NCBI GenBank assembly: GCA_019753285.1
Contig: JAIELD010000029.1
Span: 124,001-188,000 of the forward strand
Direction: 5' to 3'
DNA from: Beijerinckiaceae bacterium
Lineage (GTDB): Bacteria; Pseudomonadota; Alphaproteobacteria; Rhizobiales; Beijerinckiaceae
Length of the DNA stretch: 64,000 nucleotides
Translations under genes and position numbers: made by a program
Part shown: positions 325 to 7,332 of the stretch, one piece after another
Numbering within the stretch: the first letter of the stretch is position 1
Layout: each line of letters begins with the position of its first letter
The notes under the pieces: model-generated
Told to the model about the DNA's origin: nothing
What the model saw: only the letters and a program-made list of their open reading frames with translations
Databases searched by the model: none

Positions 325-1323
325 ATGGCTATTGAAGATATAGATACCCAACACATTGAACAAGCTATCATGGAATGTGATCGCATTGGACATGATAAAT
401 TCATTGAGAAATATGGATACGGCAAGGCTCGTGGCTACAATTTAGTTAAAAACGGCCGCGAATACGCTAGTAAAGCTATTTTAGGTGTCGCTCATAAGTT
501 TATTACGCCTTCGTCCAAGCCGTTGAAATTTAACGATTTTGGCGGCGGCAAAGCCGATGCGGCAAAGCGTCTACAAAAACTAGGTTTCGAAGTTAGTCAA
601 CCGGCTCGCAATCCACCTTGGAGCCGAGACGAATTGATTTTGGCACTGGACCTGTACTTTACAAATCCAACTAATCCACCTGGCAAGGGCTCCAAAGCGG
701 TAGATGATCTTTCGGCCCTGTTGAACAAGCTCCAGCGTTTAAATGGAACGACTGGAAACGCGTCGCTCCGCAATCAGAATGGCGTGTATCTTAAAATGAT
801 GAACCTTCGGGCGTTGGACTCGAACTTCACGTCGCAGGGTAAGGTGGGCATGCAATCAGGCGGCTTGTTAGAAAAAACAATCTGGCAGGAATATAAAAAT
901 AAACGCGCTAAATTGGCACAAGATGCAGGAGCCATCCGAGCAGCAATAACCGTTGCAGACGTTGCGGCTCCGACCGATGTTAGTAGTCGCGACCCCTATG
1001 AGGGTGACGAAGGTGGCATCATAATGCGCCTTCATCGCCGTTACGAGCGGGACGCGCGTCTTATCGTAGAAAAAAAGAAGGACGCGCGGCTTAAAGGACT
1101 TTTGGTTTGCGAAATCTGTGATTTCGACTTTGAAAAGCGATACGGAACGCTTGGTGCAGACTTTATCGAGGTGCATCACACGAAACCTGTCCACGCGATG
1201 AAGCCAGGTTCTAAGACGAAACTATCCGACCTCGCTTTGCTCTGTTCGAATTGTCATAGGATGGCGCACCGTAAACGCCTGCCGCTTTCTATTGCTGAAG
1301 TCAAAGCAGCGATATCGACTTAG
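325..1323 (+). CDS. HNH endonuclease (McrA-like), probable restriction/defence nuclease
   Basis: A 332-residue protein. The C-terminal 70 residues hold a complete zinc-bound HNH (beta-beta-alpha metal) nuclease: Cys262-x2-Cys265, the catalytic-type pair His284-His285 after an Ile-Glu-Val strand, then Cys307-x2-Cys310-His311 and His315. The family cuts DNA using one divalent metal ion. The N-terminal 90 or so residues (Gly-Tyr-Gly-Lys followed by Asn-Gly-Arg-Glu-Tyr-Ala-Ser-Lys-Ala) recall, from memory, the head domain of ScoMcrA-type type IV restriction enzymes, but I could not check this. The middle part (about 95-190) contains Trp-Ser-Arg-Asp-Glu, common in HNH restriction proteins. Only four bases separate the stop from the next start, so the two genes are almost certainly one operon. 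The DNA is AT-rich compared with the genes after 5.9 kb. Confidence 0.8.
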   Translation: MAIEDIDTQHIEQAIMECDRIGHDKFIEKYGYGKARGYNLVKNGREYASKAILGVAHKFITPSSKPLKFNDFGGGKADAAKRLQKLGFEVSQPARNPPWSRDELILALDLYFTNPTNPPGKGSKAVDDLSALLNKLQRLNGTTGNASLRNQNGVYLKMMNLRALDSNFTSQGKVGMQSGGLLEKTIWQEYKNKRAKLAQDAGAIRAAITVADVAAPTDVSSRDPYEGDEGGIIMRLHRRYERDARLIVEKKKDARLKGLLVCEICDFDFEKRYGTLGADFIEVHHTKPVHAMKPGSKTKLSDLALLCSNCHRMAHRKRLPLSIAEVKAAIST

Positions 1324-1327
1324 GATT

Positions 1328-1882
1328 ATGGTTTTGAACAAAATCGAAAATAATTTTGATTCTGAACTGTTCAATACAATTTTTGAAAGCGCTACTGCGC
1401 AAGTAGATGAAGGATATTTCAATCTTAGAATTGATGGAGGTGCTCCAATATTACGTGAGCGTGTTTATTGTTATGAATTGTATCATCAGTTCCGCCTCTG
1501 CTGGCCTGAAGCTTCTCCGTATATAATTAATGGCGAAGTCGACAAACGGGGGCATCCGATTCTGAGAAAACTAAAGGCTCAGCAAATTCCTGATTTTCTT
1601 ATCCATTCTCCAGGATCGATGAGGCATAATCACACGATCATTGAAGTAAAAACTTCGAATGTTAAAAATGGAGGTTTGAAGAAAGATGTCGAGACCTTGT
1701 TGCGTTTCAGAAATATCGTCGGTTATCAAAGAGCAATTTATTTAATTTTTGGCTCTCTCAACGATCGGACAAAAAAGCGCATTGCTAAGAATATTTGTGA
1801 ATATCCACAAATTGAGCTCTGGTTTCACGATAAACCAAACACACCTGCATATCGATATCGCTCTACTGAATACACGCGATAA
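1328..1882 (+). CDS. PD-(D/E)xK nuclease-like protein
   Basis: A 184-residue protein starting at the ATG four bases after the HNH gene; an upstream start at 1292 would overlap that gene and is less likely. The arrangement Glu50 (in a helix), then Ile-Pro-Asp89-Phe, then Ile-Ile-Glu106-Val-Lys108-Thr fits the PD-(D/E)xK fold used by many restriction and repair nucleases: an acidic residue, Asp at the end of a strand, and Glu-x-Lys on the next strand. No other domain is visible. This is the most AT-rich gene in the window, a sign of recent transfer. It sits between an HNH nuclease and an SNF2 helicase, which supports a role in DNA defence. No named family comes to mind; the nuclease assignment rests on the motif alone. 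Confidence 0.6.
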   Translation: MVLNKIENNFDSELFNTIFESATAQVDEGYFNLRIDGGAPILRERVYCYELYHQFRLCWPEASPYIINGEVDKRGHPILRKLKAQQIPDFLIHSPGSMRHNHTIIEVKTSNVKNGGLKKDVETLLRFRNIVGYQRAIYLIFGSLNDRTKKRIAKNICEYPQIELWFHDKPNTPAYRYRSTEYTR

Positions 1883-1940: not shown

Positions 1941-4900
1941 ATGCGATCCACTTCGAAATTTCAATCAAAAATACTAAGTCGCCCCTCCGAAGCTTCGCAT
2001 TACAACATTTATTGTTCAGCTCTGGAGTGGGACCTCACCGACCCTATCGTTATCGAGAGCGCTGACGACTTCAAGTCAACAAAGCGGTGGGAAGAGAGGC
2101 TCACACCCTTCCATCACCAGATCAGCAACCTCATCACCTTTTGCCGCCGCTTGCCAGTTACCCTACTCGCCGATGACGTCGGCTTAGGCAAAACGATCAG
2201 CGCTGGGCTTGTGATGAGCGAGCTGATCGCACGCGCGCGGCTCTCAAAAGTTCTTATCGTCTGTCCCAAAGTGCTCTGCCCGCAGTGGAAAGAGGAGCTC
2301 GCGTCCAAGTTTGATATTCCCAGTATAATTGCGACCGGACGAGAGATCTTGTCGGCTAATCCTGGCGACGTCGGCGCAGTAATTACAACCTACAATTCGG
2401 CCCGACTTTATCTGGAAAAAATTCCAGAGGACCGTTTTCAAATGCTTGTTCTCGATGAAGCTCATAAGCTTCGCAATCTTCACGGCACGCCAGATACACC
2501 TCAGGTAGCACGAACCTTTTATAAGGCACTATCGAACCGGCGGTTTTCTTTTGTGTTGATGCTCACTGCAACACCAATTCAAAATCGACTTTGGGACCTA
2601 TATTCGCTCGTCGACCTGCTTACGGCAGCTCGTGGCCACGACAATCCCTTCGGCTCGCCTGGCATGTTCGCTCGGCGTTTCATCGCCGATGAAAGGGATA
2701 AGGCGAGGCAATTAAAACCCGAAGCTCGCGATGAGTTTCGCTCGATAGTGTACGGTTATATGTCTCGTGTCCGGCGAGGAGATGCAAATCTCCTTTTTCC
2801 CGAGCGCATCGTTCAGATGCACAATGTATTGCCAACGCCCGCAGAGATTGAGCTGATCACCGCAATCGCGGAACCGATCAAGGAGATGAACCGCCTCGCA
2901 CAAATTAGCATATTGCAGGCTTTGGCGAGTAGTCCACATGCGCTCGCCGCTCAGCTCATCAATATGGCGAGAAACGGGACAGTATCTAAGGACCTGGCAA
3001 TTAAGGTCGGTCAAATCGTGTTGGCAATGCCTCCGAGCGCCAAACTATCAGGTCTTGCGGTCTTAATTGAACAACTCAAAAGGCAACAACCTGATAGTTG
3101 GCGTTTGATTGTTTTCACGACGCGCCGAGAGACTCAGACGACCATACAAAATTTTCTAGAATCACAGGGTCTAAAGGTTGGTCTCATCAATGGAGATTCC
3201 GGACTACGAAATCAGGAAACAATTTCCAAATTTCGTGAGACGCCACCTAGCTATCGGGTGATCGTTTCGACCGAGGCTGGTTCTGAAGGCGTCAATCTTC
3301 AGGTCGCAAACGTTCTTGTGAATTATGACCTGCCTTGGAACCCGATGATTGTCGAACAACGCATCGGTCGCGTTCAGAGACTGGGCTCTGACCACGCTCA
3401 TGTCAGTATCTTCAACATCACCCTGAAAGGCACTTTCGAAGAATACATCGTAGCGCGGCTCATGGAAAAATTGCAGATGGCTTCGCATGCCATCGGGGAT
3501 ATCGAGTCCCTTCTCCAGGGAGCGGATGTCGGTGATCGAGACGAAGATGCTGGTAGGAGCTTCGAAGATCAGATTTTGGAACTTGTCCTCGCCGCCTTGG
3601 CTGGCAAGGATGTCGAAAAAGATGTGCGTCTGAAAGAGACGAGCATTGAAAACGCAAAGCGTGAGTTAGAACTCGAGGAAGCTGCCATTAACGCGATGCT
3701 CGGCAGCATGGATAGTTCTGGATACACAGGTCCAAAGGCCCCAGCATTACCTAAAATTCAGCGCTCGATGGAGCCACCAGATTTCATTCAGTCCGCTTTT
3801 CAAATGTTGGGCGCAAAGATTTCAGAATTTCGGCCTGGCATCTTCGCGGTAGAAGAAAAATCTTCACGTGAATACATTACATTTGATCCAGAAAAATCCG
3901 CAGATAAGCGCGTAGGGCTTTACACTCCCCAATCTCCCGCATTCCAACGGCTCGTAAAACGCTCAATCAGTTCAGCACTGCATGACATTAAGGATGGCGA
4001 TGACAATCCTGGTACGGAATCGCAAAGCATCGCTTCGGCATGGGTTGAACAGCTTGGCGCGAAATTCGATATCGCGAAGGTCACGGCCGCAGCACGGTCA
4101 TTCCACGGTGACGCTCTGCTCCGGGTCCGCGCAACCACGGCGCACGATAGTTACGAGCGGCTGGTGTCATGCAAATGTGAAAATCAGGACCATCAGACCT
4201 ATAAAAGCGGGCCCGAATTTATCACGCCGGTAGCCGATCTGATCCAGGACATTGGAACGCTCGGAATTGATCCCGAAAAGCTTCGGACAGCGGGCGAGAG
4301 CGATATGGCTATTGCTGAATTTAGTAGGTTCTACCTAGAGCGAGGAGCGATTGAAGTCGAGGCTGCCGGCACGGATGATAGGAAGCGGAAGAAACTGGAA
4401 GATGATTTCACGCCGCGCCTCGAAATGACGCTTGTGGGAGTGAAAGGAAGTGTTTCGCGCGATGTCGATGTTCGTGTCCGCTACACTTTCGCTTCCGGTG
4501 GCGAATATGAGAGCGACCTTACGATCCGGCCTAGCACGCGCGAAATCGTCAAAGGCCCTGAAATTGCTCGTTGTGGCAAATCGGGACAACAAGCTCCCAT
4601 TACCTGCTTCGGACAATGTGCCTACTCGGGCGCGCAAGTGCTGAAGCATTTGTTGGTTTCATCGGAATTTTCGACACGGCAAGCACTCTCGGAATTCACT
4701 GCAACCTGCGCTTTGAGCGGGAAAACGGCTGTAAAAGACGAACTTGAGTTATCCTATGTCACCGGCAGACTAATCGCATCGAGCTTGCTTATGACATCGT
4801 CGATAAGTGGGAAACGAGGCGAACCGGAGCATTTCAGCCAATGTCATTTCACAAATTCGACCGCTCTGAAAAGCGAGCAGGCTGAAAGCCAGATTTCCGA

Positions 4901-5639
4901 AAAATACTACCGCTCTGACGAGCAAGCACGATCCGAATTCACTGGGAAACTTGGCCATAAAAGCGAGTTTTTGGCTTGTTTTGAAACTCGGCAGACAATA
5001 GCGGCGAACGAGGCCGAGACTTGCGAAATAACTCAGAAGAAGGTGCGGCCTGGGATCCTTATCGGCTGTGATATTACGGGTAAGCGGGTTTTACCTTCGG
5101 AACTCAGCGTCTGCGCCGCATCCCGGAAACGGGTGCTGAAAAGCCTACTCGTCACTAGCAGCGTTTCCCAAGCCCCGCTCATACCAGAAGAGGCTCTCCA
5201 ATCGCTGGGGGGGGCATATTGTTTACCAGTGGAGGCAGAGGCTTGTTTCTGGAGTGGTCGCCGCTCGCATCCAGACGACATGCGTACCTGTACCCTCTCG
5301 GGTCTACCGATTCATGTTGAGTTCGCGACAAAAAGCGAACCGCCGCGCCTCCGTTCGTTAGTTGAGATGCTCGATGGCATTAGGAGAAGCGCCGACGAAG
5401 AGTCCTTGTGGCCGACCCTTGAAACCAGGGTTGCTGCTGCGTTGAAAGGAGGCAAAGTTCGCGTGGAGGCGGCCGTGATTTCGCCAGCCAAACAGCATCT
5501 CGCAGTCTGTTCAGAATCGAAGAAGTTGCTCGGCCTCAAGGTCCGTCAGGTCGGGGTGATCTATGACATCAAAGATAATTCAATCATTGGCAGGCTAGCT
5601 GAAGGAAAGCGTAATGCCCAAGGCTGGGTCGCCGAATAA
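1941..5639 (+). CDS. SNF2/RapA-family helicase with C-terminal 15-residue Cys/Ser repeats
   Basis: A 1232-residue superfamily 2 ATPase. Residues 75-90 contain the Walker A Asp-Val-Gly-Leu-Gly-Lys-Thr, 172-175 the DEAH box, about 205-212 the Leu-Thr-Ala-Thr-Pro motif III, and about 443-480 the SNF2 motifs V and VI (Ser-Glu-Gly-Val-Asn-Leu, Gln-Arg-Ile-Gly-Arg-Val-Gln-Arg). The helicase part most resembles RapA/HepA-type enzymes that translocate on double-stranded DNA. Residues about 520-870 are unassigned and partly coiled. Residues 878-1131 are about 17 tandem 15-residue units, listed as a separate repeat feature; I know no SNF2 family described with them. An AGGGG lies nine bases before the ATG. 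It is the last gene of the AT-rich plus-strand block with HNH and PD-(D/E)xK proteins, which suggests a defence role with the helicase as translocating or sensing module. RapA-like recycling of RNA polymerase is the alternative, but the context does not favour it. Confidence 0.85.
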   Translation: MRSTSKFQSKILSRPSEASHYNIYCSALEWDLTDPIVIESADDFKSTKRWEERLTPFHHQISNLITFCRRLPVTLLADDVGLGKTISAGLVMSELIARARLSKVLIVCPKVLCPQWKEELASKFDIPSIIATGREILSANPGDVGAVITTYNSARLYLEKIPEDRFQMLVLDEAHKLRNLHGTPDTPQVARTFYKALSNRRFSFVLMLTATPIQNRLWDLYSLVDLLTAARGHDNPFGSPGMFARRFIADERDKARQLKPEARDEFRSIVYGYMSRVRRGDANLLFPERIVQMHNVLPTPAEIELITAIAEPIKEMNRLAQISILQALASSPHALAAQLINMARNGTVSKDLAIKVGQIVLAMPPSAKLSGLAVLIEQLKRQQPDSWRLIVFTTRRETQTTIQNFLESQGLKVGLINGDSGLRNQETISKFRETPPSYRVIVSTEAGSEGVNLQVANVLVNYDLPWNPMIVEQRIGRVQRLGSDHAHVSIFNITLKGTFEEYIVARLMEKLQMASHAIGDIESLLQGADVGDRDEDAGRSFEDQILELVLAALAGKDVEKDVRLKETSIENAKRELELEEAAINAMLGSMDSSGYTGPKAPALPKIQRSMEPPDFIQSAFQMLGAKISEFRPGIFAVEEKSSREYITFDPEKSADKRVGLYTPQSPAFQRLVKRSISSALHDIKDGDDNPGTESQSIASAWVEQLGAKFDIAKVTAAARSFHGDALLRVRATTAHDSYERLVSCKCENQDHQTYKSGPEFITPVADLIQDIGTLGIDPEKLRTAGESDMAIAEFSRFYLERGAIEVEAAGTDDRKRKKLEDDFTPRLEMTLVGVKGSVSRDVDVRVRYTFASGGEYESDLTIRPSTREIVKGPEIARCGKSGQQAPITCFGQCAYSGAQVLKHLLVSSEFSTRQALSEFTATCALSGKTAVKDELELSYVTGRLIASSLLMTSSISGKRGEPEHFSQCHFTNSTALKSEQAESQISEKYYRSDEQARSEFTGKLGHKSEFLACFETRQTIAANEAETCEITQKKVRPGILIGCDITGKRVLPSELSVCAASRKRVLKSLLVTSSVSQAPLIPEEALQSLGGAYCLPVEAEACFWSGRRSHPDDMRTCTLSGLPIHVEFATKSEPPRLRSLVEMLDGIRRSADEESLWPTLETRVAAALKGGKVRVEAAVISPAKQHLAVCSESKKLLGLKVRQVGVIYDIKDNSIIGRLAEGKRNAQGWVAE
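4572..5333 (+). repeat. DNA encoding about 17 tandem 15-residue repeats in the SNF2 protein
   Basis: Codons 878-1131 can be set out in lines of 15 with conserved columns: position 1 is Cys or Ser, position 3 is usually hydrophobic, position 4 is Ser or Thr, position 5 is most often Gly, position 6 is often Lys or Arg, and positions 12-13 are often Glu-Leu or Glu-Phe. Units begin for example at Cys878, Cys893, Ser908, Cys923, Ser938, Ser953, Cys968, Ser983, Ser998, Cys1013, Cys1028, Cys1043, Cys1058 and Ser1073. One unit near 1088-1101 has 14 residues, then units start at Cys1102 and Cys1117. The DNA copies have diverged, so the repeat is visible only in the protein. Confidence 0.85.
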
Positions 5640-5893
5640 TTGCGGTCTCTTCCCAGAAACTCCGGTCGAAAAAGCTTATTTGGGGCCTAAACGGATGATT
5701 AGTCGGTGAACGATTAAACGCTCACTAGACATCCGAATTATCCTGAAAAACCGACGCTGTGTGATGTGTTCTTGGTCAGTTCTGGCTCAACTTCGAACGT
5801 ATCGCTATACCCCCTTTCGTTCTTTTTTTACGCATAGCGTCTGTTAGCTCTTTCGGGGCGATCGACGCGCCGCTGCCGGCCATCCTCTTCGAG

Positions 5894-5913
5894 GCGGAGG
5901 GCTGAACCTCCGC
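5894..5913 (-). terminator. hairpin just downstream of ndh
   Basis: A 7-bp perfect stem (GCGGAGG with CCTCCGC) and six-base loop start four bases past the stop codon of the minus-strand NADH dehydrogenase gene. No run of T follows on the minus strand, so it may be only a weak terminator or an RNA-stabilising end. The rest of 5640-5893 between the AT-rich island and ndh shows no gene, tRNA or attachment repeat that I can see. Confidence 0.45.
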
Positions 5914-5916
5914 TGC

Positions 5917-7332
5917 TCAATGCAGCTTCAGCTTCGGGCGGATCACCTGGTTGACATGGCCGATCGCGATCATCGTCATGCCCTTCAGCCAGCCATGAAT
6001 GGCGATGAGGTGCATGCGGTAGAGCGACACGTAGATCAGCCTCGCAAGACGGCCTTCCACCGCCATGCGCCCGCCGATGAGGTTGCCCATCAGGCTGCCC
6101 ACGGTGGAATAGCGTGACAGAGAAACGAGCGAGCCCTTGTCGCGATAGACGAAGGGTTCGAGGCTACCGCCCTTGATCAGCGCGCGGATATTGCGAAAGC
6201 AGGTTTCCGCCATCTGGTGCGCGGCCTGCGCGCGCGGCGGAATGGGCCGGTCGGCGCCCTGCGGCTGGCAATTCGCGCAGTCCCCGATCGCGAAGATGCG
6301 CTCGTCCCGCGTCGTCTGCAGCGTGTCGCGCACCACGAGCTGGTTGTTGCGCGTCGTCTCCAGCCCGCCGATTCCGTTGAGGAACTCGGCGCCCTTGACG
6401 CCCGCCGCCCAGACCTTGAGGTCGGCCTCGATGAAGCCGCCGTCGCGCGTGGCAATGCCGGTCTCGCGCACCTCGGTCACCTGCAGCCCGGTGAGCACCG
6501 TAACGCCGATCGCCTCGAGCTCGGCTTTCGCGGCCGCCGAAAGCTTTTCGGGCAGCGCGGGCAGAATGCGAGGGCCGGCTTCGACCAGCGTCACCTTGAG
6601 GCGCGACTCGTCGAACACTTCGAGACCGTAATAGCCTAGGCCGCGGGCCGCGGTGAAGAGCTCGGCCGCAAGCTCGACGCCGGTCGCGCCGCCGCCGACG
6701 ATCACGATGCGGACATACGCATCGGCGGCCGGGTCCGCGCTCATGGTGCGGGAGACACGCAGGCATTGGTTGAGCAGCATCTGGCGAAACCGGTCTGCCT
6801 GCTCGCGACTGTCCAGAAAAATTGCGTTGTCCCGCGCGCCCGGCGTGCCGAAATCGTTCGAGACAGAGCCGATCGCCAGCACCAGATAGTCATAGCGGAT
6901 GCGGTGCTGCCCGATGATCTCCCGGCCCTTTTCATCGAGCAGCGGAGCCACGATCACCTGCCGCGCCTCGCGGTCTATGCCTTGCAGCGAACCGTCGAAG
7001 AAGCGGTAGTTCCAGCGATAGGCGTGGCTGCGATAGCCGACCTCGTCGAGATTGGCGTCGAGGGAGCCGGCGGCGACCTCATGCAGCAGCGGCTTCCAGA
7101 TGTGAGTGCGGTTGCGGTCGACGAGGATGATGTCGTAGCTGTCGCGCGGGAAGGTGCGGCCGAGCTTCACCATGAGGCCAAGCCCACCGGCGCCGCCGCC
7201 GATCACCACGATCTGCGTTTTCTTCGCCTTCATCGCGCTCGGCAGCCCGTTGGACGACGTCGGAAGCCCGGCCGGCGAGTGCGGGAGGCTGCCGACCTCT
7301 TCGGTCCTCGTCTTGCTCGCCAAATCGTCCAT
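5917..7332 (-). CDS. ndh: type II NADH:quinone oxidoreductase (NDH-2)
   Basis: A 471-residue FAD enzyme that oxidises NADH and passes electrons to quinone without pumping protons, at the inner face of the cytoplasmic membrane. Residues 40-50 form the FAD-binding Gly-x-Gly-x-x-Gly strand, a second Val-Gly-Gly-Gly-Ala-Thr-Gly near 210 binds NADH, and Ala-Ile-Gly-Asp near 350 closes the FAD site. The C-terminal 60 residues are hydrophobic and amphipathic, as in membrane-attached NDH-2. The frame is open further upstream, but the ATG at 7332 has AAGGAG eight bases before it, so I start there. The first 35 residues before the FAD motif are not conserved-looking. Confidence 0.9.
   Translation of the reverse strand: MDDLASKTRTEEVGSLPHSPAGLPTSSNGLPSAMKAKKTQIVVIGGGAGGLGLMVKLGRTFPRDSYDIILVDRNRTHIWKPLLHEVAAGSLDANLDEVGYRSHAYRWNYRFFDGSLQGIDREARQVIVAPLLDEKGREIIGQHRIRYDYLVLAIGSVSNDFGTPGARDNAIFLDSREQADRFRQMLLNQCLRVSRTMSADPAADAYVRIVIVGGGATGVELAAELFTAARGLGYYGLEVFDESRLKVTLVEAGPRILPALPEKLSAAAKAELEAIGVTVLTGLQVTEVRETGIATRDGGFIEADLKVWAAGVKGAEFLNGIGGLETTRNNQLVVRDTLQTTRDERIFAIGDCANCQPQGADRPIPPRAQAAHQMAETCFRNIRALIKGGSLEPFVYRDKGSLVSLSRYSTVGSLMGNLIGGRMAVEGRLARLIYVSLYRMHLIAIHGWLKGMTMIAIGHVNQVIRPKLKLH

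Follow-up and report, generated by a model that had tools for sequence, protein, structure and literature searches.

What a SNF2-family helicase might do with a long C-terminal array of short, strictly spaced repeats is the question raised by a gene in a 64,000-nucleotide stretch of contig JAIELD010000029.1 (assembly GCA_019753285.1) from a Beijerinckiaceae bacterium, hereafter the window. The gene encodes a protein of 1232 amino acids (aa), which we tentatively read as a RapA/BrxHII-like SNF2 motor for defence against foreign DNA, with a partner docked on the repeat arm (probability about 0.42). New here is the unnamed repeat domain with its strict fixed pattern on a RapA-type SNF2 protein; the kind of helicase, one that serves in defence, is itself known. 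The gene and its parts are as follows (window positions).

1941 to 5639, plus strand: SNF2-family helicase with C-terminal 15-residue repeat array, 1232 aa (open reading frame (ORF) with PF00176 E 7.9e-25 and PF00271 E 2.4e-18; full-length relatives)
2160 to 3494, plus strand: SNF2 ATPase core, residues about 74-518 (Pfam stretches 74-307 and 375-482)
3648 to 4505, plus strand: middle region, residues 570-855, alpha+beta, RapA-like by fold alignment, holding the family signature AHDSYERL
4572 to 5333, plus strand: array of 17 units (14 of 15 aa, one of 14 aa, two cap units), residues 878-1131, barcode CCSCSSCSSCCCCSSCC
5220 to 5291, plus strand: possible terminal metal site C1094, C1102, H1110 and C1117
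5334 to 5636, plus strand: C-terminal tail, residues 1132-1232, alpha+beta sheet, weakly cystatin/NTF2-like

The array lies exactly where the initial annotation, made from the DNA letters, had placed it: residue 878 starts at window position 4572 and residue 1131 ends at 5333. The count of about 17 tandem 15-residue units, 14 of them in exact phase, is likewise upheld by self-comparison. Across residues 866-1136 the autocorrelation peaks at a lag of 15 (47 identities, z 8.8), with z 7.9 at lag 30 and 8.7 at lag 45, and the lag-15 score was reached by none of 2000 shuffles at any lag from 5 to 49. Exact 15-residue phase is kept by 14 units (starts 878 to 1073), followed by a 14-residue unit (1088) and the cap units (1102 and 1117). 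A tandem repeat or recent expansion at the DNA level was ruled out, since Tandem Repeats Finder lists none in the array DNA and the copies are diverged; judged from its sequence, the array is an old, diverged protein repeat.

Relatives came from a pattern-based scan of 84,980 species genomes, which rests on two peptide patterns and is thus not complete; it yielded 50 loci. L003, L004, L005, L049 and L050, which came from separate genome searches, were taken as the same contigs as L062, L081, L095, L075 and L060, and counted once. Array counts refer to 45 of 51 proteins (the window's and those of 44 of the 50 loci), the truncated or broken members L058, L077, L080, L083, L086 and L099 being left out, and codon and position counts refer to the 32 seventeen-unit members among those 45. 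In all 45 near-full-length members the best lag (5-39) is 15 or 30, with a lag-15 score above all 200 shuffles. The composition of the canonical units (14 units in each of 32 members) bears out the position pattern first proposed for the window protein, namely Cys/Ser at 1, Ser/Thr at 4, Gly at 5, Lys/Arg at 6 and Glu-Leu at 12-13: position 1 is Cys in 55% and Ser in 45%, position 4 is Ser in 58% and Thr in 41%, position 5 is Gly in 67%, position 6 is Lys or Arg in 61%, position 12 is Glu in 42% and position 13 is Leu in 44%.

Unit number varies among the 45 members (17 in 32, 25 in eight, 13 in three, 21 in one and 16 in one), always by whole units, and no insertion or deletion was seen within canonical units (37 members with an automatic start; ten inspected). 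The 25-unit arrays carry a doubled block of units 5-12, the two copies being 39-64% identical within a protein, and the three 13-unit members, L093 among them, all from the Candidate Phyla Radiation (CPR), lack units 10-13. A four-unit superperiod, considered from the length steps of -4, +4 and +8, was rejected, given the one 16-unit member and the lack of a lag-4 peak in unit similarity.

The initial annotation had linked such a domain to no SNF2 or RapA family, and no match to the array was found in Pfam, NCBIfam, PADLOC, PHROGs or PDB sequences, the last queried both with the single sequence and with a repeat profile. Above the cut-offs, Pfam finds only helicase domains in the ORF (SNF2-rel_dom, E 7.9e-25, and Helicase_C, E 2.4e-18, with overlapping ResIII and DEAD); the middle region has no Pfam match, and at E up to 10 a search for a named domain in the array yields just DUF3659, in the tail (E 0.024, below its cut-off), and a named domain was therefore rejected. 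Among the open-access papers listed by literature searches, we found none on such an array, nor any on a SNF2 helicase with C-terminal "15-residue repeats"; subscription papers lay outside that scope.

Which unit starts with Cys and which with Ser is near-invariant, the position-1 barcode across units reading CCSCSSCSSCCC[C/S]SSCC. Unit 13 is the variable one (23 Cys, nine Ser); elsewhere the seventeen-unit members depart from the barcode three times, with Asp at unit 2, Cys at unit 6 and Ala at unit 15, each seen once. In the 13 members of other lengths, L084 deviates by one Val, L095 and L098 deviate in the doubled block, and L098 also has one Ala. The codons repeat this picture: serine is of the TCN type at units 3, 5, 6, 9 and 15 (31 of 32 members at 6 and 15, 32 of 32 elsewhere), with all four wobble bases present at each, and of the AGY type at units 8 and 14 in 32 of 32, and cysteine is encoded by either TGC or TGT. 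A single base change separates Cys from Ser, yet the two are hardly ever exchanged while wobble bases vary freely, which suggests strong selection on the Cys-versus-Ser identity of each unit, with the proviso that the members share ancestry and these counts are not independent events.

An AlphaFold2 model of residues 856-1232 from 32 family sequences predicts a regular repeat array and not a globular fold, as the initial annotation had suggested, with a mean predicted local distance difference test (pLDDT) score of 94.0 and 92-97 per ten-residue block over most of the array. A typical unit is predicted, by DSSP assignment of the model, to have six loop residues (CxxS/TGK), three of strand, three of helix and three of strand; a 1200-residue model (residues 33-1232, 45 sequences, mean pLDDT 79.8) shows it again throughout the array, where pLDDT is about 75-93. 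The units would stack into a rod. Foldseek found no PDB match to the array model at E<=0.001 (best 0.19), and its weak rows include LIM4-5 of PINCH1 (7d2t, E 0.47); the predicted secondary structure of the array fits a knuckle and hairpin. Rows returned by VIA for the array-plus-tail model are mostly to the tail, so that the array was hardly tested and a fold missing from those lists shows nothing; the best tail row (4r80_A, Z 6.6, 71 aligned, root-mean-square deviation (rmsd) 3.4) is below the tool's trustworthy level. In a comparison with the viral models of BFVD, 20 matches reached E<=1e-3 (best 7.3e-6); most of them are unnamed, and none has a query-normalised template modelling (TM) score above 0.26. 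Named matches near the top include a LIM-domain protein, a metallothionein (0.011) and an amidoligase (1.4e-3); a giant-virus PARP and, within the 20, adenovirus fibres also appear, which marks the match level as loose.

Its predicted knuckle-hairpin layout would link the array to zinc fingers of the LIM and treble-clef kinds and to LIM-like proteins of viruses, namely A0A6J7X2B6 ("LIM domain containing protein") and A0A8S5MS56 ("prokaryotic metallothionein") in BFVD, and gp08 of Klebsiella phage KpV48. In KpV48 gp08 the C-terminus has a CxxC zinc-ribbon-like stretch and then a CxWS turn (five relatives aligned), and a profile comparison of this stretch with the array was not significant (probability 0.8%). 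The array differs from these fingers in having Ser/Thr in place of the second knuckle Cys (99%), an exact 15-residue period and 13-25 units, and a unit may thus be a zinc knuckle that lost its second ligand.

The initial annotation had zinc held by Cys pairs in some units, and this part found no support. In the 32 seventeen-unit members, 99% of canonical cells have Ser or Thr at position 4 and none has Cys, so that a unit offers at most one knuckle Cys and no CxxC pair; zinc in most units was rejected on these grounds. The two ligand pairs per zinc of LIM and treble-clef fingers are lacking from the array, and the last cap alone could form one C-C-H-C site: C1094, C1102, H1110 and C1117, invariant in 32 of 32 members, may bind a metal. 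A second candidate site is perhaps C878/C889/C893 at the array start, and metal sites are plausible only at these two ends. The same evidence bears on the idea that the Cys units act together as a ladder of metal or redox sites (zinc, iron-sulphur, or disulphides linking adjacent Cys units) sensing oxidation or metal stress. That the Cys units are strictly conserved, with Ser swaps only at unit 13 and once at unit 6, and that units 10-13 form an adjacent Cys run would suit such a ladder; one knuckle Cys per unit without CxxC pairs, three CPR members lacking units 10-13 altogether, and Cys units 4 and 7 isolated with Ser on both sides make it quite improbable.

The loop tips prompt another explanation, in which the array binds nucleic acid directly and the GK/GR tips form a basic ridge on DNA or RNA that lends processivity or substrate choice. 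Lys and Arg are indeed frequent in canonical cells at positions 6 (61%), 7 (39%) and 15 (34%). However, acids at positions 2, 11, 12 and 14 nearly cancel them, leaving a net charge of +1 to +8 over 254 residues in six members, and position 6 of units 7, 10, 14, 15 and 17 is Lys or Arg in at most 9% of members. An array this close to neutral argues against a purely electrostatic nucleic-acid spool, and we regard direct binding as unlikely, less so than the ladder.

The motor half of the protein is of a more familiar kind. The standard helicase motif strings DEAH, TATP, QRxGRxxR and EGVNL served as search patterns across the family; the first three occur in 45 of 45 members each, and motif I in 43 of 45. 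The four best Foldseek rows are RapA, and the alignment with RapA 8t0l_F spans model residues 2-809 (Z 23.8, 597 aligned, rmsd 7.8), covering the SNF2 core and the following alpha+beta region. In VIA, eukaryotic remodellers rank above RapA on the core alone, and the RapA row spans core plus middle. No counterpart of the N-terminal tandem Tudor pair of RapA is seen in the modelled part: the window helicase starts within about 70 residues and the model, which begins at residue 33, has no strands before the first helices. BrxHII, the BREX helicase, has been described with a RapA-type architecture (PMC12839542), and the middle region may be the same two domains as in BrxHII and RapA.

Profile scores place the protein beside, not within, the RapA, DrmD and DpdE families, as all fall far below the NCBIfam cut-offs. 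The best are for DrmD of DISARM (212.8 against a cut-off of 610, and 180.4 against 950), DpdE and an anti-phage phospholipase D-like protein, and RapA (PRK04914) reaches 125.4 bits against 576. PADLOC, which holds only defence models, gives BrxHI/HII (192.4 bits), DrmD and HmaA as best. Unlike any of RapA, BrxHII, DrmD, DpdE and HmaA, the window protein carries the 17-unit array and tail, which match nothing above cut-off in the libraries.

The family is sporadic. A whole-protein search at E 1e-60 finds it in four of 397 genomes of the order, the window's own counted, the other three proteins being 50-61% identical (61, 50 and 53%) over almost their whole length, and a C-terminal profile finds it in two of 385 genomes of a class sample and two of 398 of a phylum sample, own genome counted each time. 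The initial annotation had raised the question of which other N-terminal domains the repeat is fused to; among 200 genomes the repeat-only profile found only the SNF2 gene of the sample's centre genome, and in the window genome only the SNF2 gene, so that no other fusion partner appeared in these few sampled genomes. The 50 loci span Pseudomonadota, Nitrospirota, Acidobacteriota, Planctomycetota, Lentisphaerota, Elusimicrobiota, Bdellovibrionota and several CPR/Patescibacteria lineages, and a quick tree, in which the nearest relative of the window protein is from Bosea thiooxidans, mixes these phyla (15 label changes for 13 groups, where the least possible is 12; Pseudomonadota take 7, of which starred branches force 5). 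This mixing fits horizontal transfer without proving it, and many rows are metagenome bins. The members from a Nitrospira bin (L064) and a Nitrosospira bin (L068) are nearly identical, with a tree path of about 0.05, pointing to recent transfer or a binning mix-up.

With tblastn, the C-terminal 379 residues had no match among phage or plasmid records. In viral contigs, the full-length profile found 37 SNF2 relatives by their helicase part only, none with a four-unit profile match in the DNA examined; a second peptide-pattern scan gave 202 pattern stretches and no array relative, and a degenerate CxxTGK pair pattern gave 19 stretches, mostly of the CxxCxGTGK type by eye. Two viral contigs (L116 and L120, reverse strand) show a weak four-unit match (E 1.4e-5) from a few near-identical 15-residue CEPTGKPTRTRSLRR-like copies, which are probably a DNA minisatellite.

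In the window the SNF2 gene is the last gene of a casposon-like element, whose features are as follows (window positions unless a contig is named).

G000:C1:114077-129813: casposon-like element, 15,737 bp, SNF2 gene last
G000:C1:114063-129827 (L010:4063 to window 5827): element with its duplications
325 to 1323, plus strand: HNH endonuclease gene (PF01844 E 2.1e-10; PHROGs HNH)
1292 to 1882, plus strand: 196-aa protein, PD-(D/E)XK-like by motif only (PDF...EVK), 58 bases from its stop to the SNF2 start
5801 to 5813, unstranded: right inverted end, 12 of 13 bases matching the left end
5814 to 5827, unstranded: right copy of a perfect 14-bp T-rich target-site duplication (left copy at G000:C1:114063-114076, outside the window)

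The element encodes a stand-alone Cas1 (PF01867, E 8.7e-32, G000:C1:116747-117883), a PolB-like protein, a 334-aa protein without family match, the HNH protein, the 196-aa protein and, last, the SNF2 protein. The PolB-like protein (1053 aa) matches PF03175 below its cut-off (E 7.3e-5) and PHROG 1907 DNA polymerase (E 2.8e-11), with C-terminal helix-turn-helix (HTH) matches; the 196-aa protein has no Pfam match at E 0.01 and only PD-Lambda-3_A (E 0.005) in PADLOC. No Cas2 turned up among the ORFs scanned, no search having been aimed at Cas2 or a CRISPR array. Between about L010:4000 and window 5650-6000, GC content in 1-kb windows is 42-56%, down from 60-66%. At the left end the duplication is followed by GGGGTATAGTGAT, and at the right end the inverse of GGGGTATAGCGAT is followed by the same 14-bp duplication; a general repeat finder did not show these ends, and a perfect 14-mer appeared in none of 300 trials with shuffled end regions, with the caveat that the duplication is T-rich. 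Target duplications of casposons are usually about 14 bp long. The element lies upstream of a recA-like gene (recognised by eye), which all 13 genomes searched contain at high identity. In the sister genome G001, checked for an empty site, the left flank matched through the duplication plus three bases (78% over 50 bases), which left the right side unconfirmed; the right-hand neighbour gene was not found there at E 1e-80. Just inside the left end, L010:4228-4653 holds a 142-aa ORF of YTGPGGG(A/L) repeats with a 24-bp DNA period.

Islands with Cas1, PolB, HNH and HTH genes, bacterial casposons among them and one of these alphaproteobacterial, have been described (PMC4046053); features that the window element shares with casposons are Cas1, HNH, a PolB-like protein whose C-terminus matches HTH, inverted ends and a duplication of 14 bp. 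The same source reports helicases in many casposons and, in the text searched, does not mention SNF2 (PMC4046053). This setting is what could favour a housekeeping or element-serving helicase, either a RapA-like recycler of RNA polymerase, as the fold similarity to RapA would allow, or a replication helicase of the casposon in which the gene stands last. Such a role sits poorly with the sporadic occurrence of the family, with the NCBIfam RapA score, and with the lack of any homologue of nine element proteins, Cas1 and PolB-like included, beside the other 50 loci, where each flank examined was at most 9 kb and often shorter. We hold it to be unlikely, a shade more so than direct nucleic-acid binding; as far as seen, the casposon setting is particular to the window's copy.

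At the other 50 loci we scanned the 89 genes nearest to the array gene, one or two per locus, from uncurated longest-ORF calls (L058:7427-7786 and L094:6638-7171 were left out of 91). Among the best 25 of 87 Pfam families in these genes are PF13482 (RNase_H_2; 9), DUF2779 (6), DUF2130 (3), SNF2 (3) and PDDEXK_1 (3); among the best 25 of 231 PADLOC families are one Cas4 model (7) and DrmD/DrmA-type helicase models (4), and BrxC, BrxX and PglZ are not. Further neighbours match a type IIG/ISP restriction enzyme. By direct comparison, a Cas4-like/RNase H-like protein is the nearest gene in 14 of 50 loci (L061, L068, L070, L071, L072, L077, L078, L079, L088, L093, L094, L096, L097 and L098); the Pfam counts sum to 15, so that either a protein is counted under both families or a locus was missed by the direct comparison. 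Four of the 14 (L068, L070, L071 and L072) have a clear G-x-PD...(D/E)-x-K motif; L093 and L098 gave looser pattern matches, and the remaining eight gave none. Since PF13482 occurs in 71 of 150 phylum genomes, mostly once, nine of 89 nearest genes is far above chance, stated without a p-value as the loci are related and the gene calls crude. DUF2779 and COG2251 (PF13482) proteins are presumed 3'-5' exonucleases with a PD-(D/E)XK-like domain (PMC3985635).

Several neighbours stand apart. A second SNF2 protein adjoins the array SNF2 gene at L057:11000-13954 and L059:3455-6667, and a TerB_N-domain protein is encoded directly upstream of it at L079:6404-7393 in a Patescibacteria genome. The RNase H-like neighbours at L077:2317-5736, L088:3712-7176 and L098:3679-7080 are 1134-1155 aa long, with additional matches to AAA (superfamily I-type) helicase domains in L077 and L088, a combination reminiscent of the fusion of Cas4 and helicase reported in casposon HenMar-C1 (PMC4046053).

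Plasmids offer a simpler relative. The SNF2 core matches 25 plasmid records, and the three inspected (Haloarcula, Nostoc and Rhodovastum) hold two-gene versions:

L134:3252-6192: two-gene plasmid version
L135:3270-6039: two-gene plasmid version
L136:3399-6114: two-gene plasmid version

Their SNF2 proteins are 522-585 aa long, with 31-34% core identity and family-profile E-values of 6e-85 to 4.1e-63, and, unlike the window protein, have no array. Directly downstream is a partner gene of 346-396 aa, with CxxC at or near its end in Haloarcula and Rhodovastum and CELSG in Nostoc. Profile alignments of the partner with the middle region or array were not significant (probability at most 1.5%). As a lead only, these conserved pairs suggest that the array grew from a terminal knuckle.

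We therefore return to the reading of the window protein as a defence motor. A RapA/BrxHII-like SNF2 translocase would track on double-stranded DNA, driven by ATP, its C-terminus having grown into a modular arm. Each unit of the arm would start with a CxxS/TG loop resembling a zinc knuckle and continue as a short strand, a single helical turn and another strand; units would stack in register, mostly metal-free, with Cys or Ser at position 1 set by the neighbours that a unit packs against or by the face it shows. The arm would be a docking or recognition rod, carrying to foreign DNA whatever it has bound, either a ligand derived from the invader or a nuclease partner, candidate partners being the Cas4-like/RNase H-like nuclease and, in the window, the HNH and PD-(D/E)XK-like proteins. 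This reading is favoured because, of the five helicase motif patterns sought, four each occur in 43-45 of the 45 members; because the predicted core and middle align with RapA, an architecture described for BrxHII; because the best profile scores fall on defence helicase models (DrmD, DpdE, BrxHI/HII and HmaA); because the nearest gene is Cas4-like/RNase H-like in 14 of 50 loci, with DrmD/DrmA-type and type IIG/ISP neighbours; and because the array model is confident (pLDDT 94.0) and position 1 and its codon family are conserved unit by unit.

Other observations weigh on the opposite side. The EGVNL pattern (motif V) occurs in only 31 of 45 members. The predicted TM score is 0.68 for array and tail and 0.47 for the 1200 residues. 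On their visible sides, 36 of 50 loci have no Cas4-like/RNase H-like nuclease as nearest gene, and the window's two nucleases have no homologue near other loci, from which it follows that partner choice is loose or that the protein acts alone. The PADLOC tallies are biased, since any SNF2 neighbour matches many models, and the counts stand without matched control loci. The case for ATP-driven tracking, a docking surface and a defence role is built from sequence and structure models.

A bolder version holds that the array, as a largely metal-free, knuckle-derived solenoid with a Cys/Ser barcode shared across phyla, CPR included, is a new repeat domain and the arm for recognition and docking in a two-part immune machine of SNF2 motor and Cas4-like/RNase H-like exonuclease, also carried as casposon cargo. 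We consider it doubtful in this full form, yet with more in its favour than direct nucleic-acid binding.

For the family, the per-unit conservation of Cys, Ser and codon type is a striking case of repeat-protein units that are not interchangeable. Whole units could be removed from the array or added to it, in keeping with its natural variation (13 to 25 units), which offers a direct way to ask what such helicases recognise, and the recurring nuclease neighbour makes a testable two-gene system. In the Beijerinckiaceae bacterium, the casposon setting ties an array SNF2 gene to Cas1-driven mobile DNA.

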